Origin: Syncephalis fuscata
Lineage: Eukaryota; Zoopagomycota; Zoopagomycetes; Zoopagales; Piptocephalidaceae
DNA length: 24,282 nt
Assembly (NCBI GenBank): GCA_025786725.1
Contig: JAHLTZ010000131.1
Span: forward strand, 1-24,282
Reading direction: 5' to 3'
The notes under the pieces were generated by a model that saw nothing but the letters and a program-made list of their open reading frames with translations, made no database searches and had not been told where the DNA came from. Shown here one piece after another: positions 326 through 14,103 of the stretch. A program made the translations under genes and the position numbers. The first letter of the stretch is position 1. Each line of letters starts with the position of its first letter.

Positions 326-586
326 ATGTCAGCTCTTAACAAGTTCAACCACTTGATTGTGAACTCACTGTTCCGCCGTAATTCTGTGTTTCTTACCGGT
401 ATATTTGTCGGTGCTTTTGCCTTTGAGATTGGCTATGATTGGCGTGACAGAGCGTATCTGGAAGCGATTGAATCAAGGGTAAGTTTGCTATGGATCCCAA
501 CAGCTCTACTCGTAACTATAGTATAGTATTAACGCGTTTAAATCTAGCGTACCTGGGATGATATCAAGGATCGTTATTCTGCTTAG
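326..586 (+). CDS. QCR9: Cytochrome bc1 complex subunit 9 (QCR9/UQCR10 family)
   Basis: Small subunit of mitochondrial respiratory complex III in the inner membrane. It helps hold the Rieske protein and cytochrome c1 in the assembled complex. Two exons are predicted, 326-478 and 548-586, with a 69-nt GTAAGT...TAG intron falling between codons, giving 63 residues, the usual size. The family pattern is clear: a basic FRRNSVF stretch at about 16-22, one membrane helix at about 22-36, and the conserved end WDDIKDRY in exon 2, like the WKxIKxKY end of animal and fungal homologues. Without splicing, the frame runs into unrelated residues and loses this end, which supports the intron. Confidence 0.93.
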
Positions 587-1376: not shown

Positions 1377-3982
1377 ATGCCATGGCTCAACAGTCACAGA
1401 CCCATCAATATACTGTTAGATACACCGCCAGCCATTGATTCTCCCTATTTGGCATCCAATTCATCACAGCCATCTATTCTACTATCAAGTAATAGACATA
1501 GTCGCCAAGAAAAGGAAGAGGCTGCAGAAGAAGAGGAGGAGGAAGAGTCTGATAATGAAGATAATGAAGAAATCAATGTACGGCGTCCATTGTTGGGAAA
1601 ATTATCTCATCAACCAAAACGTCATCAAAATGATGGTAATAATTATGCGGTTTCAGAAGATTTAGTTACAAAACCTTTAGTAAAATTGTATCGACGAGGG
1701 AATAATGAAATGAAAGCTAGTTATGCAGTTATTTATTCACCACTTTATACACCTATCAATACATCAACGTCTATTGCTATTCCATCTATTAAGAGTTCTA
1801 TGGATGGACGTCATAAGGGATCTAGTGCTAGAATAGGTATGTCAGCATCACCTAGATCATCTGTGCCGGCTGTACCGGCAACGGATGAGGAGGGAACACT
1901 GAGACGGTCAACAAGACGAAAGCGTAAAGGGCGTAAGCGACAAGTAGATTTACGAATGAGTGTATTTCAACCACTTCCCAATGAATTAGAAAGTTGGCAG
2001 GTAAGTAAATAGTCCAGTAACATTGATAGATACTAATTAATATTTGCTTGGTTAGACAGAAGTTGTTAGTTGTACACCATTTCATGCGCCTGTTAATAGC
2101 CGCGACTTTAACTCTAAAGTGGATAGAGTCAAGATGGCTATTAATAATAATATACAACCAGAGAGAAATGCGCAAGGGTCATCCGGATCGTATTTCTGTA
2201 GAATGTTGTTACCAAATAGTGATGAGGTGTCTACACGTTATCGATATGCGTTAGATCATAGAGATCCACCATTACAACGTACGCAAGTAGTGGGTATATT
2301 CAAACCAAAGAATGAAGAACCATATGGACATTTAAATCCCAAATGGACTAAATGGCTACACCGTAACTGTTTCCCCTGTTTCTTTGGCCGTAGTTGGTAA
2401 GTAATATATACATAACTATATAGATATGTAAATTATTAATGATGCTAATATGTTTTTAGTTTGATTCCTAATTTGGGATATTTATCAGAATCGGCAGCAT
2501 TTCTACTTGATCAAAGACTAGGATTGAATATTGTGCCACATACTAATATTGCTCATTTAGCATCTACTTCATTCTATTATGGGAAGCGTAGACGTAGAAG
2601 AGCGAATAGAGAGCACAATGAGGAGGGAATGACTAGTACGGGGAATGACTATTTACCGCAAAAGATTGGTAGTTTTCAATTATTTGTTGATGGCTATGAA
2701 GATGCCGATAAGTTCTTCTCTAATCATCCCTGGACTGAGGATGATGCACCTGAAGTAGATCCAGCAGTTGATTATACCAAGAAGAATGCAACTGCTGAAT
2801 TTAGATGGTCAGCGTCTATTAAAAAGCAATTTCAAGAAGAATTTGAGAAATTAGTGATATTAGACTATCTAATGCGTAATACAGGTGAATAGATAGTATT
2901 GATTGCAAATTGTCAATGTATTTATTAGTATATTTGTAGATCGTGGTATGGATAATTGGATGATCAAGTGGTGTATGGCACCTGATGAACATCCAGCTGG
3001 TTGGTGTACTACAAGTGAAGAAGATTGTAGTCAATTACATACTACTGTCACTACTACTGCTGCTGCTGCCACTAATCATTATAATGTACAATCTGATATT
3101 ATATTTAATGATCACTCAAGTGATCATACGTCAAAGCAGGCTACTAGATCATTGCGTAATACAAATAGTGATTTAATTACACCAGAGTATTTATCTGGTC
3201 CATCTACAACATCACCATCTAATAGTACACGTCCTCATTTACATATTGCCGCTATTGATAATGGATTGGCCTTTCCGTGGAAGCATCCAGATGAATGGCG
3301 CTCTTATCCATTTGGTTGGCTTAGTCTGCCTTCTAGTATTATAGAGAGACCATTTTCGGAATTTACTCGACAGGCGATGCTAACTAAATTGACGAATCAT
3401 CGATGGTGGGAGCGTACAGTGCAGTCACTCCACGCGCTATTCCGTCAAGATGAAGACTTCAACGAACGTATGTTTCATCGCCAATTATCGGTAATTAAAG
3501 GACAGGCTTGGAATTTGGTAGAGTGCCTAAGGGATCCCACGAAAGGCCCAGTTCATCTGTGTGATATGGTGGCCGTGGCAGTTATTGAGGAAGAGGTGGA
3601 TGCGCCGTCACCACTACCGGTAGATCCGAACCACCCGCCAGCCATACCGCTTACCGAGCAGCAACTGGATGGAGATGGAGAGGAGGGTGGTGAATCACCG
3701 CCAAGACCGCCGCATTCACTAGCTCGGTTAAAGGAGCCACGGTATAGACGTAGTGTCCATAGTTTGAGAAGTGCGACGAGTAATCGGTCACAGCACAGTA
3801 GACGTAGTAATCGCAGTGGCCACGCTGCAGCCACCGCTACCGCTACTGGTACTTATCATGGGGCGTTGTCGCCTAACTATTTTGATGCACCGGCAGCAAC
3901 AACAAGAACCCGACGGCGACAACGTGTAAAAGAACGACTACAATTTCTCACACAAATACGACCTTGTTTTACATGGTGTTAA
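1377..3982 (+). CDS. LSB6: Type II phosphatidylinositol 4-kinase (Lsb6/PI4K2 family)
   Basis: Makes phosphatidylinositol 4-phosphate on Golgi, endosome, vacuole and plasma membranes. Exons are 1377-2000, 2056-2396, 2460-2884 and 2940-3982, together 810 residues, against about 480 in humans and 607 in yeast. The extra length is low-complexity sequence: an acidic run at about 45-66, a basic run at about 177-189, an insert after the catalytic loop and one before the C-terminus. Conserved parts appear in order: QGSSGSYF (about 248-255), the ATP-binding lysine K291 in GIFKPKNEEPYG, a CFPC segment at the position of the palmitoylated cysteines of PI4K2A, the catalytic loop RNTDRGMDNW (461-470) and AIDNGLAFP with D570. 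The C-terminus FTWC matches the aromatic end of the family. A dileucine RRPLL (69-73) resembles the AP-3 sorting signal of PI4K2A. The start is the first in-frame ATG, and the frame is open upstream to 1263. Confidence 0.95.
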
Positions 3983-10321: not shown

Positions 10322-13300
10322 TTATTCTATGTCTATAAACAAATATAACACATGCTATAGAGTTAATGTATAAACTAGCAATACACAATGCCACTTACTA
10401 GCTAATAGTGTTAAGTCGTTGGTATACACGATACATATCAGTTAATTAGTACATAATTAGCTAAGACACAGAATCACTTACGACCTATCAATATTGATTT
10501 GTCAATACATATAATGAGCACACAGTTAATGCATGGCTGATTGCAACAAAATGTCACTTACAGCCTATTAGCATTGAGTTTTCGATACAAAAATAAACAT
10601 GCAGTTAGTGCATAGCCAATTGATATACGGTGCCACTTACGATCTATTAAGGTTGAGTCATTTATAAACACAGTATAAATTATTTAATCAGTAGATAGTT
10701 AGCTACCATAAAATCCACGTACTCTCTATTAATGTTAGATTATTGGTAAGGACAATTTATAGTATAGAATTAGGATATGGTCAATTAATATACAACATCA
10801 CTTACGATCTATTAATGTTAAATCATTGGCAGACACAATGCATAGTATGTAATTAGCGCATAATCGCTTAGTGTAAAACACTACTTACTGCCTATTAATA
10901 TTAAGTTGTTGATACACACAGTGGCCAATATATAATCAGTGTATAGCTAATTAATATACAATGCCACTTACAGCCTATTAAGTTGTCAATGAATACATTA
11001 AAGATTATTTAATTAGTATATAATCAATCAATAAACAGTATCACTTACGAGCTATCAATATTAATTTGTTGATGCACACAATTCATAGCATGGAATTAGT
11101 GCATAGTTACTTAATATATAATGTTACATACTGACTATTAGTGTCAATTCGTTGACATACACAGTATATGATAAGCAGTCGATATATAGTCAATTAATAA
11201 ACAGTATCACTTACTGCCTATTAATATTAATTTTTAATACACATAATGATTACATAATTAATGCATGGCTAAGTGCCATAAAATACCGCTTACAGTCTAT
11301 TAGCATTGAATTGTCAATACACGCAATAAACATACAATTAGTGCATAGTCAATTGATATAAAATATTACTTACCATCTATTAATATTAAATTGTTGACAA
11401 ACAGTAAATGGTGTGCAATTAATGTATAGCCAATTACTATATAATACCACTTACCAACTATTGATATTAAATCATTGATAGACACAATACATAGTATGTA
11501 ATTAGTGCATAATCCCGTAATATACAATACCACTTACTGTCTATTAATATTAAGTTTTTGGTATACACGGTAGACAATCTATAATCAGCGTATAAATAAT
11601 TGACATACAATATCACTTACAGCCTATTGAGTTGTCAGTAAATACAGTATAGATTATTTAATTAGTAGTTAGCTAATTGCCATAAAATACCACTTACTCT
11701 CTATTAGTGTTAATTTGTTGATACGCACAATCCACAACATGTAATTAGCGCATAGCCAATTAATGCACGGTGCCACTTACTCTCTATCAATGTTTTAACA
11801 TTGATAAACACAATACACAACATGTGATCAGTGAAAAGTTATTAATATACAACACTACTTACTGTCTATTAATATTATTTGATTGATAAACGTAATGCAT
11901 AGCATTTAATCAGTGTATATCTAATTGACGCAATATCACTTACCTTCTATTAAGTTATTAATACATGAAATAATCATGTAATTAGTACAAGCCAATTGAT
12001 ATACAATGCCACTTACCCGCTATTGATATTAAGTTGTTAGCAGAAATAATACATAGTATGTAATTGGTTCATAGTCAATAATATAAAATACTACTTACGC
12101 TCTATTATTTATAATATATTAATACATAATTAATAATATAAATGCTACTTACTGCCTATTATTATTAATTTGTTGGTATACACAATAAACAGTATTAATC
12201 AGTGCATATCCAATTAATATACGATGCCACTTACAAACTATTAATATTGCATTGTTGATACAAATAGTCAATAGTATATAATTAGCGCATATTCAATTAG
12301 TATATGATGCCACTTACAAACTATTAATATCAAATTGTTGATGCAAATAGCACATAGTATATAATTAGTGTAAAATTACTTATTACATGATTACTTACCG
12401 CCTGTTAATATTAAGTTGTTAATACACACAGTAAGCATATAATTAGTGCATAGCCAATTGCCATAAAGTACTACCTACAGTCTATTAAGTTGCCGATAAC
12501 ATATTATAGATTATGTGATTAGTGGATAGCTTATCAATGCACGGCGCCACTTACATTCTTTTAAGACCAGGTTTTGACCCACATGAAATATATCATTTAA
12601 TTAATACGCAGCCAATTAATATACAGTACCAAGGGGACGTTGCTAGCCCAGTTGGTAAGGCAGCGTCTCCCGAGCTGAAGGCTCCGGGTTCAAACCTCAG
12701 TTTGAACCAATCCTTAAGTGGAAAATCCCCCCCCCCCCCCTAGTTTTCTCTAGTTAACAAATTGCAAACCAGAACCCAATAAGTAGGTCCGGAAACAAGA
12801 CCTTGGCCAGAATAGCCGAGGAAAAACCCAATTGGGACCAACTTCAAGAGAATAGTGCTGTGTAGCACCATTTAAAAGAAGATGGCCCCCGTGTAAAATC
12901 TATATGGACCAGATTTTGCGCAAAAACGTGGCAGTCCACCCGTTAAAAGTTTGGAAAAGTCCAAATATAGTGGGAAGCAGCGCAAATTCTTTAATTATGC
13001 GCAGCGGGGGCTCACAAGCTCTTCAAAATAAATAAATAATATACAGTACCACTTACTCTCTATTAATATTAGATTGTGGACGCATACAATAATGATATAA
13101 TTAGTAAATACTCAATTGCTATACAATACCGCTTACCATCTATAGCATTAGGTTGTTAATACGTACAATATTCAATAAATGATTAGTGCATAGCTGGTAC
13201 ATATAAAATATCACTTACAGTCTATTGTCAATAAACATATTATAGGTTATGTAATTAGTAGATAACCAATTAATCCACGGTGCCACTTACAAGCTATAAG

Positions 13301-14103
13301 CATTAAATCGTTGACCCACACAATAGATATCATTTAATTAATACCCAGTCGATTGATATACAGTACCACTTACCAGCTATTGATATTCAATAATCGATAC
13401 ACACAATGCATAGAATGTAATTAGTGCATAACCATCTAATATACAATACCACTTACTGCCTATTGATATTGATTCGTTGATAAATACAGTGGACAGTATA
13501 TAATTAGTGTATAACTAACTGACATACAATACCACCTACATTCTATTAATTTATTGATAAACACCACAAATGTCACGTAATTAGTGTATAATCACTAAAT
13601 ATAGCATGGCACCTACTTTCTATTAACATTAAATTGTTGATACACGCAGCGCATATCATGTAATTAGCTTATATTTAACTAATATACAATAGAACTTACC
13701 TTCTATTGATTTTAATTTGGCAAATAAAATATATTTAATTAAATTGCTAACTGGCCCGTAATACTACTTGCCTTTTATTAATGTTAGTTTAACATAGTAG
13801 CATTACAAATACAGTGTTTAATGTACTGTTTATAACAAACTTACCATCTGTTTACATTTTTCATTGTGTTTATTATGTGTATGGAGTTGTATAATAAGTA
13901 ATGTAGTAACAATCCCATGATCACAACTTACTAGCTAATATCACCATTAGTGGTTAAATATAACAACAGTAAGCATATCAATTTGCACATTATTGTAATT
14001 ACAACATACCACGACGGGCTAGAGCCGGTCTAGCTTCCACAATGGCTGTACTGGCTACAAAAGCTATAGTGAGGGTGCAGGCGACTATAATAAAAAGCTT
14101 CAT
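10322..14103 (-). CDS. Secreted six-cysteine peptide encoded by 40 single-triplet micro-exons
   Basis: Not a gene I recognise. Exon 1 (14103-14010, 94 nt) codes MKLFIIVACT, a hydrophobic core, then VEARPALARR: a secretory signal peptide, probably with a short propeptide ending in a Kex2-type Arg-Arg. It ends one base into a codon at a GTATGT donor (14009). Then come 40 exons of exactly 3 nt, spaced 72 to 87 nt apart except one 54-nt step and one step holding a SINE. A terminal exon (10332-10322, coding part) follows, after a GTTTATAG acceptor. Joined, they stay open and give 74 residues with cysteines at 38, 46, 49, 61, 65 and 70, a CVFC motif, and many K/E/D/Y. The last codons are Asn-Ile-Glu-stop. 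Every micro-exon is phase 1-1, so each codon is split across an intron. The fold suggests a small disulfide-rich secreted peptide, perhaps an effector or antimicrobial, but the function is unknown. An alternative last acceptor would lengthen the tail. Transcript data are needed. Confidence 0.8.
12617..12631. repeat. Left target-site duplication of the SINE
   Basis: TAATATACAGTACCA, identical to 13037-13051. It belongs to the array unit, so the pre-insertion intron can be recognised. Confidence 0.88.
12632..13036 (+). mobile_element. tRNA-derived SINE inserted in an intron of the micro-exon gene
   Basis: A 405-bp insertion that interrupts one array unit and lies antisense to the host gene. 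The head resembles a tRNA: RNA polymerase III A box TAGCCCAGTTGG at 12644-12655 and B box GGTTCAAACCT at 12687-12697, with degenerate stems, so it is not a working tRNA. A 14-base C tract follows at 12727-12740, then an unrelated body of about 280 bp, ending in an A-rich tail AAAATAAATAAA. Identical 15-bp sequences flank it. This is the classic structure of a SINE moved by LINE machinery. It codes for nothing and lengthens the host intron from about 80 to about 500 nt. Confidence 0.88.
12687..12708. repeat. Perfect 9-bp hairpin covering the SINE B box
   Basis: GGTTCAAAC, a CTCA loop, then GTTTGAACC: a perfect inverted repeat. The B box makes up its left arm. Confidence 0.9.
13037..13051. repeat. 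Right target-site duplication of the SINE
   Basis: TAATATACAGTACCA, the second copy. Its last base is also the final base of the GTAAGT donor at 13056-13051 (minus strand). The insertion therefore fell next to the donor without destroying it. Confidence 0.88.

Follow-up and report, generated by a model that had tools for sequence, protein, structure and literature searches.

A gene family of Syncephalis fuscata whose predicted secreted peptides appear to be encoded one triplet per exon

Results and Discussion

Syncephalis fuscata is a fungus of the order Zoopagales, and its genus is parasitic on other fungi. Here we describe a gene on the minus strand of a 24,282-nucleotide (nt) stretch of S. 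fuscata contig JAHLTZ010000131.1, referred to below as the window. This gene is very probably one of a large family of genes for apparently secreted peptides in which the mature peptide is encoded almost wholly as one triplet per exon. An initial annotation of the window had treated the gene as a single case, which our genome-wide searches do not bear out. Its proposal of 3-nt exons as carriers of the coding sequence finds support in the size of the family, in an order-dependent reading frame and cysteine content, in intron-free paralogues and in a trade-off in pairing with U1 at weak donors.

Between positions 13934 and 10399, 40 units of the AG-NNN-GT type were found on the minus strand, mostly about 80 nt apart (Table 1); weaker chance matches to AG-NNN-GT in the same stretch were put aside by eye. 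Our recount agrees with the initial annotation in finding an AG acceptor in 39 of the 40 units, a GT donor in 39 and exactly GTAAGT in 32. Under a first-order Markov model of the stretch (300 simulations), the 32 observed AG-NNN-GTAAGT sites compare with a mean of 0.04 and a maximum of 1. Outside this stretch the window contains a single AG-NNN-GTAAGT, which is on the plus strand. The unit at 13772 was said to lack both splice sites; this holds for its acceptor (AA), while its donor, GCAAGT after a G, is a donor form also used in other models of the family.

Joining exon 1, 39 triplets and the terminal exon gives an open reading frame (ORF) of 222 nt, 73 codons plus stop, the length foreseen for the case that the unit at 13772 is skipped. 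The joined product is MKLFIIVACTLTIAFVASTAIVEARPALARR-ANEEKCTAYYEKYCVFCKPEDKKSYIDDCITRCNQNRCPNIE, with the six cysteines previously noted, all past the leader. Read in the frame set by exon 1 the gene has no stops and closes, as proposed, at a normal acceptor and stop codon. The frame in which each triplet is a codon has no stops and no cysteines, and the third frame has five stops and one cysteine, in line with the earlier remark that one of the two other phases is interrupted.

The gene family in the genome

In the 28.95-Mb genome the pattern AATAG-NNN-GTAAGT occurs 3,183 times, compared with 28 for the pattern read backwards, and the leader/first-donor junction 126 times, compared with 2 for a control. 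The exact pattern is present in 409 of 601 three-base units of 21 gene models; extrapolation from this share suggests about 4,600 units in the genome. All 150 leader candidates scored, the best 150 of 291, match at E up to 10. A profile search (E up to 0.1) found 14 public proteins with the family leader, all from S. fuscata. As predicted from these loci (designated L, with contigs as C and public proteins as P), family members are small and mostly cysteine-rich peptides in which the leader is conserved and the mature part diverges strongly, and judging from the leader only they would be secreted. Gene models have up to 54 micro-exons.

Three to eight cysteines were found in 15 of 20 array products. 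A spacing of C-x2-C-x3-C ... C-x3-C is common to several of them; the strict pattern is present in 5 of 20 arrays and in none of 1,000 shuffles of the set. The joined product of L073 scored 21.7 bits (E 2.5e-4) against the Pfam scorpion short toxin family (PF00451), below the cut-off of 25.1, and this likeness is probably one of shared cysteine spacing only. The predicted fold of P0002 is of low confidence, with a mean predicted local distance difference test score (pLDDT) of 66.

Single exons of 15 nt were seen in six models (L064, L082, L052, L048, L034 and L068). Those of L064, L082, L052 and L048 spell an APLAKR-like stretch, likely a second dibasic processing site. Roughly 80% conservation extends over about 1 kb upstream of several family genes (L036-L040, L046, L053), which may reflect a promoter or a segmental duplication. 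Public models probably misannotate the family. P0001, which came from the protein search and maps to contig C239 in two pieces, translates one micro-exon together with most of the next array intron (L079 bases 475-555, minus strand), and P0006, by a look at its unmapped sequence, resembles it in apparent read-through. Intron 2 of the L063 model (about 465-623, 158 nt) holds further possible exons, and P0007 seems to have a longer exon there; the L063 model may be incomplete.

Reading frame and triplet order

Arrays were modelled from donor and acceptor profiles trained on such units and from intron length, with no use of the reading frame. A first sample of 22 regions around leaders chosen from a list yielded 20 arrays, L072 being intron-free and L081 having a leader and some units yet no array model; these 20 and the window gene make up the 21 gene models. 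When no exon length was favoured, the models contained 683 internal exons, 599 of them 3 nt long and 644 a multiple of three. When 3-nt exons were favoured, the figures are 601 and 622 of 625. Adding shorter stretches to the first sample and removing near-identical copies gave 34 non-redundant arrays with 812 modelled internal exons, 769 of exactly 3 nt and 806 of a multiple of three. All 34 arrays have a leader that stops after one base of a codon, and the micro-exons start at codon position 2.

With L062 omitted, the frame of exon 1 is open in 19 of 20 models, with one stop and 87 cysteines in all. When triplets were shuffled within the same 20 genes, we obtained on average 32 stops (minimum 19 in 1,000 shuffles) and 40 cysteines (maximum 59). 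The third frame has 68 stops in 20 arrays. Among the 34 arrays, 32 joined frames are open compared with at most 20 after shuffling of triplet order; the totals are 3 stops (shuffled mean 40, minimum 26) and 112 cysteines (shuffled mean 53, maximum 69). Of 20 arrays searched for a terminal acceptor (L062 not among them), 17 have a candidate, and in 14 of these the first candidate brings the frame to a stop within 23 nt. Exceptions are L065, with a 2-nt unit, L069, with an earlier stop, and L071.

Intron-free paralogues

Contiguous members with the same leader were found at L046, L054/L055, L072 and L078. P0002 is contiguous along its full 69 residues (C236, C273) and P0008 along the 43 residues compared (C222, C278), and for P0011 a contiguous match on its own contig covers the shared stretch. 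The clearest correspondence is that of L066, whose product of 49 joined micro-exons includes CTYSECMEKCKTYC, a stretch that is uninterrupted in L046; the DNA is alignable as well.

We scored 19 arrays against nine mature peptides regarded as intron-free, among which P0005 and P0010 were assumed to be contiguous and P0011 was included by its contig match only. Four arrays beat all 1,000 shuffles (score against shuffle maximum): L066 (132 vs 58), L079 (79 vs 58), L063 (69 vs 62) and L074 (59 vs 51). For L073, L065, L067, L080 and L070, 1 to 15 of 1,000 shuffles were as good, and for L064, 17.

Upstream of L046 and L078, about 0.3-1.4 kb is shared with array genes at about 75-83% identity, and L054 has at most about 165 bp upstream in common with them. 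In a leader tree of unassessed support four intron-free copies are scattered among arrays, which suggests repeated intron loss. Given their shared upstream sequence and their place among arrays in this tree, it is a fair guess that L046 and L078 lost all introns through complementary DNA (cDNA).

Introns and splice sites

Introns of the 21 gene models are short, 611 of 625 being at most 100 nt, with a median of 78. The consensus of 142 family introns of exactly 80 nt is GTAAGT.gTATTgTATATTAAtTgA.TAT.cACTAATtAtAT..tAT.tAcTgTgTgTATcAA.aA.TTaATAtTAATAG. Array introns have the GT/GC-AG borders and branch-like CTAAT element of U2-type introns. Ten candidate introns of ordinary window genes (49-105 nt), selected by a pattern that included the branch-like motif, likewise start with GTAAGT and end with TAG.

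GC donors and donors without G at +5 depend on G at -1, which here is the third base of the micro-exon. Among 554 three-base units of 19 genes, G was found at -1 in 45 of 91 non-GTAAGT donors and in 101 of 463 GTAAGT donors (Fisher p 2e-7; z 5.3 when stratified by gene). It was present in 12 of 12 GCAAGT, 8 of 8 GTAATT and 5 of 6 GTAAAT donors, and donors such as GTATGT are without this excess (1 of 10). These findings support an offsetting of weak donors by a third-base G, as expected of sites recognised by U1. Since the splice model ignored the exon base, this trade-off is independent evidence that the donors are used.

These results bear on another possibility, in which the array would be non-coding, a tandem repeat (minisatellite) made up of decayed or selfish introns, with exon 1 spliced directly to the terminal exon and the triplets meaningless. 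Units of about 83 bp are indeed tandemly repeated in the window, and introns within one gene are on average about 0.72-0.74 identical, neighbours (0.740) just slightly more than distant ones (0.718). A repeat of this kind is nevertheless extremely improbable in view of a triplet order that holds the frame and doubles the cysteines in a phase fixed by exon 1, of four in 19 arrays spelling peptides of intron-free paralogues, with a notable match of L066 to L046, and of donors that are near consensus or, where weak, compensated by G at -1.

Points against the one-triplet-per-exon reading

Several observations weigh against this reading or limit it. The ends of seven models were placed by hand after earlier models had been viewed, and the script for the 34 arrays favours 3-nt exons. 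If each triplet is itself read as a codon, 18 of 20 arrays are likewise open, with only 2 cysteines in all, so openness alone cannot settle the phase. Five of the 20 products (L064, L069, L077, L082, L083) have only 0-2 cysteines. In-frame stops occur in L062 (two) and L069 (one), and models of L065, L068, L001 and L038 contain a 2-nt exon. In L065 this is a clear unit, ATAG-GC-GTAAGT, at 2567-2568 (+) in an array that is regular elsewhere, and could mean either a frameshifted gene or a unit that is skipped. Nine remaining arrays were indistinct from shuffles in the comparison with intron-free peptides, the window gene (336 of 1,000) included. No contiguous relative of its mature peptide was found, an empty result of little weight. 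Support for the window gene comes from its frame, its cysteines and the family. Finally, a chain of donors and acceptors this long may be spliced inefficiently.

The stops in L062 and L069 and the 2-nt unit in L065, together with the existence of intron-free members with the same leader, would also fit arrays that were formerly spliced and are now mostly pseudogenes, the intron-free copies being the working genes. We regard this as very unlikely: more arrays are open than in any shuffle, and 52 of the 53 overlapping paralogue pairs listed (all but L033/L043) show lower divergence at splice-site bases than elsewhere in the introns, although in some pairs the gap is slight. In the recent pair of the window gene and its duplicate L061, 37 of 39 triplets are identical and two have single-base differences, which also speaks against decay. 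The tandem-repeat-only and pseudogene readings were both judged unlikely after the triplet shuffles and the paralogue comparison.

Proposed mechanism

If the arrays are coding, exon 1 would encode a conserved signal peptide and a propeptide ending in RR, which we take to be a probable Kex2-type cleavage site, and would break off one base into a codon. Each 3-nt exon would then complete this codon with two bases and begin the following one with its third. The spliceosomal introns of about 80 nt would presumably be taken out by ordinary intron definition, probably from 5' to 3'. With only three bases between both used halves of a site, exon definition is implausible and intron definition likely. 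At every step the growing exon, now 3 nt longer, would be placed right before the next GTAAGT, in a process akin to recursive (ratchet) splicing with one triplet retained per step. Transcription, splicing and its order, secretion and a biological role are what we infer here from the genome sequence.

Another possibility, compatible with the mechanism above, is that micro-exons are purposely skipped to give many single-residue peptide variants per gene. With 806 of 812 internal exons a multiple of three, nearly any skip preserves the downstream frame, and by manual reading the frame of the window gene is open with the decayed unit at 13774-13772 either kept or skipped. Constitutive use is favoured by the mostly consensus donors and compensated weak ones and by the cysteine spacing shared among several products, and a stop appears in the window gene when the ATG unit at 13139 is left out. 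We consider purposeful skipping rather unlikely.

Evolution of the arrays

In whole-gene comparisons of paralogues the leader is conserved and the triplets are very different. In these alignments triplets seemed to change much faster than introns, an effect that slippage of units inflates and explains in part. When both flanking introns were anchored (106 exon pairs, not independent), the share of differing triplet sites was 9 of 63 at an intron divergence of 4.6%, 8 of 39 at 7.0%, 0 of 105 at 0.4% and 3 of 105 at 1.8%; two single units gave 2 of 3 and 0 of 3. These numbers are only suggestive of triplets changing faster than introns.

The intron may be the repeated part of these genes and the codon a variable spacer, with intron plus triplet as the evolving unit. 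As units are duplicated, lost or converted, peptides would grow, shrink and recombine by single residues, almost without exception in frame and in a single phase. The outcome would be a fast-diversifying secreted arsenal, with introns numerous enough to sustain a specialised short interspersed nuclear element (SINE). We would stop just short of calling this picture probable.

Inside the window array, about 400 bp of unrelated sequence has been inserted; target-site duplications flank this stretch, and L061 lacks it. Reading by eye shows a transfer RNA (tRNA)-like stretch in the insert, antisense to the gene; ARAGORN called no tRNA in the insert. A genome search with the insert gave at least 43 matches, at least 41 of them long and the window copy included (40 of 60 candidates scored). 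Of the 41 long copies listed, 31 lie at most 6 kb downstream of a leader or leader/first-donor junction, 30 of them in the orientation of the gene, and 10 have no listed leader nearby. The stretches within 6 kb downstream of the 186 leaders or junctions among the matches listed make up about 4% of the genome. In 6 of 8 distinct insertions examined, one being that of the window, the left junction is just after a TATTGTATATTA-like motif near the donor; a second L068 copy joins earlier, and L029 is without left flank. Further copies were seen in L002, L037, L048, L058 and L068. The element is possibly a site-specific retroelement specialised on array introns.

Other features of the window

The coordinates of the window gene are collected in Table 1. 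Its terminal coding part is presumably followed by a 3' untranslated region. Its product had no match above cut-off in Pfam and none among PDB sequences, and Rfam and ARAGORN searches found nothing. Neighbouring ORFs matched the Pfam domains SPX plus Na/sulphate symporter, Tim10/DDP zinc finger, OHCU decarboxylase, CAF1 and ABC transporter, and two more matches, to PI3/PI4-kinase, were weak and below cut-off.

Table 1. Parts of the modelled gene in window coordinates, in order of the minus strand.
Feature	Position	Strand	Remarks
Exon 1	14010..14103	-	secretory leader MKLFIIVACTLTIAFVASTAIVEARPALARR + 1 nt; donor GTATGTT
Intron array with micro-exons between	10333..14009	-	gene model
Micro-exon CTA	13932..13934	-	AG/CTA/GTAAGT
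Micro-exon ATG	13845..13847	-	AG/ATG/GTAAGT
Decayed unit AAG	13772..13774	-	acceptor AA, donor GCAAGT preceded by G; probably skipped; identical defect in duplicate gene L061 (contig C35)
Micro-exon AAG	13700..13702	-	gene model
Micro-exon AAA	13617..13619	-	donor GTAGGT; gene model
Micro-exon AAT	13540..13542	-	donor GTAGGT; gene model
Micro-exon GCA	13457..13459	-	gene model
Micro-exon CTG	13374..13376	-	gene model
Micro-exon CTT	13291..13293	-	gene model
Micro-exon ACT	13219..13221	-	gene model
Micro-exon ATG	13137..13139	-	donor GTAAGC; gene model
Micro-exon AGA	13057..13059	-	gene model
SINE-like insertion inside intron, 406 bp	12631..13036	-	14-bp target-site duplications at 13037-13050 and 12617-12630
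Micro-exon AAT	12555..12557	-	gene model
Micro-exon ACT	12479..12481	-	donor GTAGGT; gene model
Micro-exon GCG	12399..12401	-	gene model
Micro-exon TTT	12318..12320	-	gene model
Micro-exon TTT	12235..12237	-	gene model
Micro-exon GCA	12153..12155	-	gene model
Micro-exon AGC	12099..12101	-	gene model
Micro-exon CGG	12017..12019	-	gene model
Micro-exon AAG	11944..11946	-	gene model
Micro-exon ACA	11863..11865	-	gene model
Micro-exon AGA	11781..11783	-	gene model
Micro-exon AGA	11698..11700	-	gene model
Micro-exon GCT	11621..11623	-	gene model
Micro-exon ACA	11538..11540	-	gene model
Micro-exon TTG	11455..11457	-	gene model
Micro-exon ATG	11374..11376	-	gene model
Micro-exon ACT	11294..11296	-	donor GTAAGC; gene model
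Micro-exon GCA	11215..11217	-	gene model
Micro-exon TCA	11132..11134	-	donor GTATGT; gene model
Micro-exon CTC	11049..11051	-	gene model
Micro-exon GCT	10972..10974	-	gene model
Micro-exon GCA	10889..10891	-	gene model
Micro-exon ATC	10806..10808	-	gene model
Micro-exon AGA	10723..10725	-	donor GTACGT; gene model
Micro-exon ATC	10641..10643	-	gene model
Micro-exon GCT	10562..10564	-	gene model
Micro-exon GTC	10482..10484	-	gene model
Micro-exon CTA (last)	10399..10401	-	gene model
Terminal exon, coding part	10322..10332	-	ACATAGAATAA, stop TAA; acceptor ATAG 66 nt past last donor

Comparison with known systems

The comparisons that follow concern architecture. Micro-exon genes (MEGs) of Schistosoma mansoni encode secreted proteins in many short exons, mostly multiples of three (PMC10526429). 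Their exons are 6-81 bp (3-81 in the abstract), mostly 15 bp, with 10-20 per gene and introns of 0.1-5 kb (PMC10526429), which agrees with the earlier suggestion that schistosome MEGs are a near idea with larger exons. S. fuscata arrays likewise have many short exons, almost all multiples of three, and a secretion predicted from the leader only. Unlike MEGs, their exons are nearly all 3 nt, number up to 54 and lie in similar introns of about 80 nt, outside the MEG range of exon size and intron length. Aphid bicycle genes encode putative effectors with unusually small internal exons, almost all starting at codon position 2, and have about 17 exons on average (PMC9168663); the micro-exons of all 34 S. 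fuscata arrays start at this position too.

In Drosophila recursive splicing, directly juxtaposed AG and GT are used stepwise in very long introns (PMC6110457). The S. fuscata units are similar in their adjoining acceptor and donor and in the stepwise use proposed, and differ in the three bases between AG and GT in nearly all units and in their introns of about 80 nt. Ultra-short exons have been described in Fusarium CYP621A (1 nt, PMC12940212), Dactylellina lipS genes (two of 3 nt, PMC5639578), plant APC11 and VPS55 (1 nt, PMC8831610) and Drosophila homothorax (3 bp, PMC7392893). These known cases are one or two exons per gene, whereas in S. fuscata such exons would be the main coding substance of a family.

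Our literature search, with most subscription journals outside its reach, found, among the papers listed, no description of runs of 3-nt exons or of these S. fuscata genes. Given the larger exons of MEGs, the single occurrence of known 1- or 3-nt exons and the absence of a description, we rate the arrays as a new variant: they would be an extreme form of micro-exon genes, so far undescribed in the literature searched.

Exon definition is hardly applicable to an exon of 3 nt, and dozens of them in a row would demand very accurate stepwise intron definition. Standard annotation struggles with such a family: only 14 public leader-bearing proteins were found, and the model of at least one, P0001, translates across an array intron. 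The family would supply thousands of natural test cases in one small genome, and minimal exon size, splicing order and intron origin become directly testable questions.

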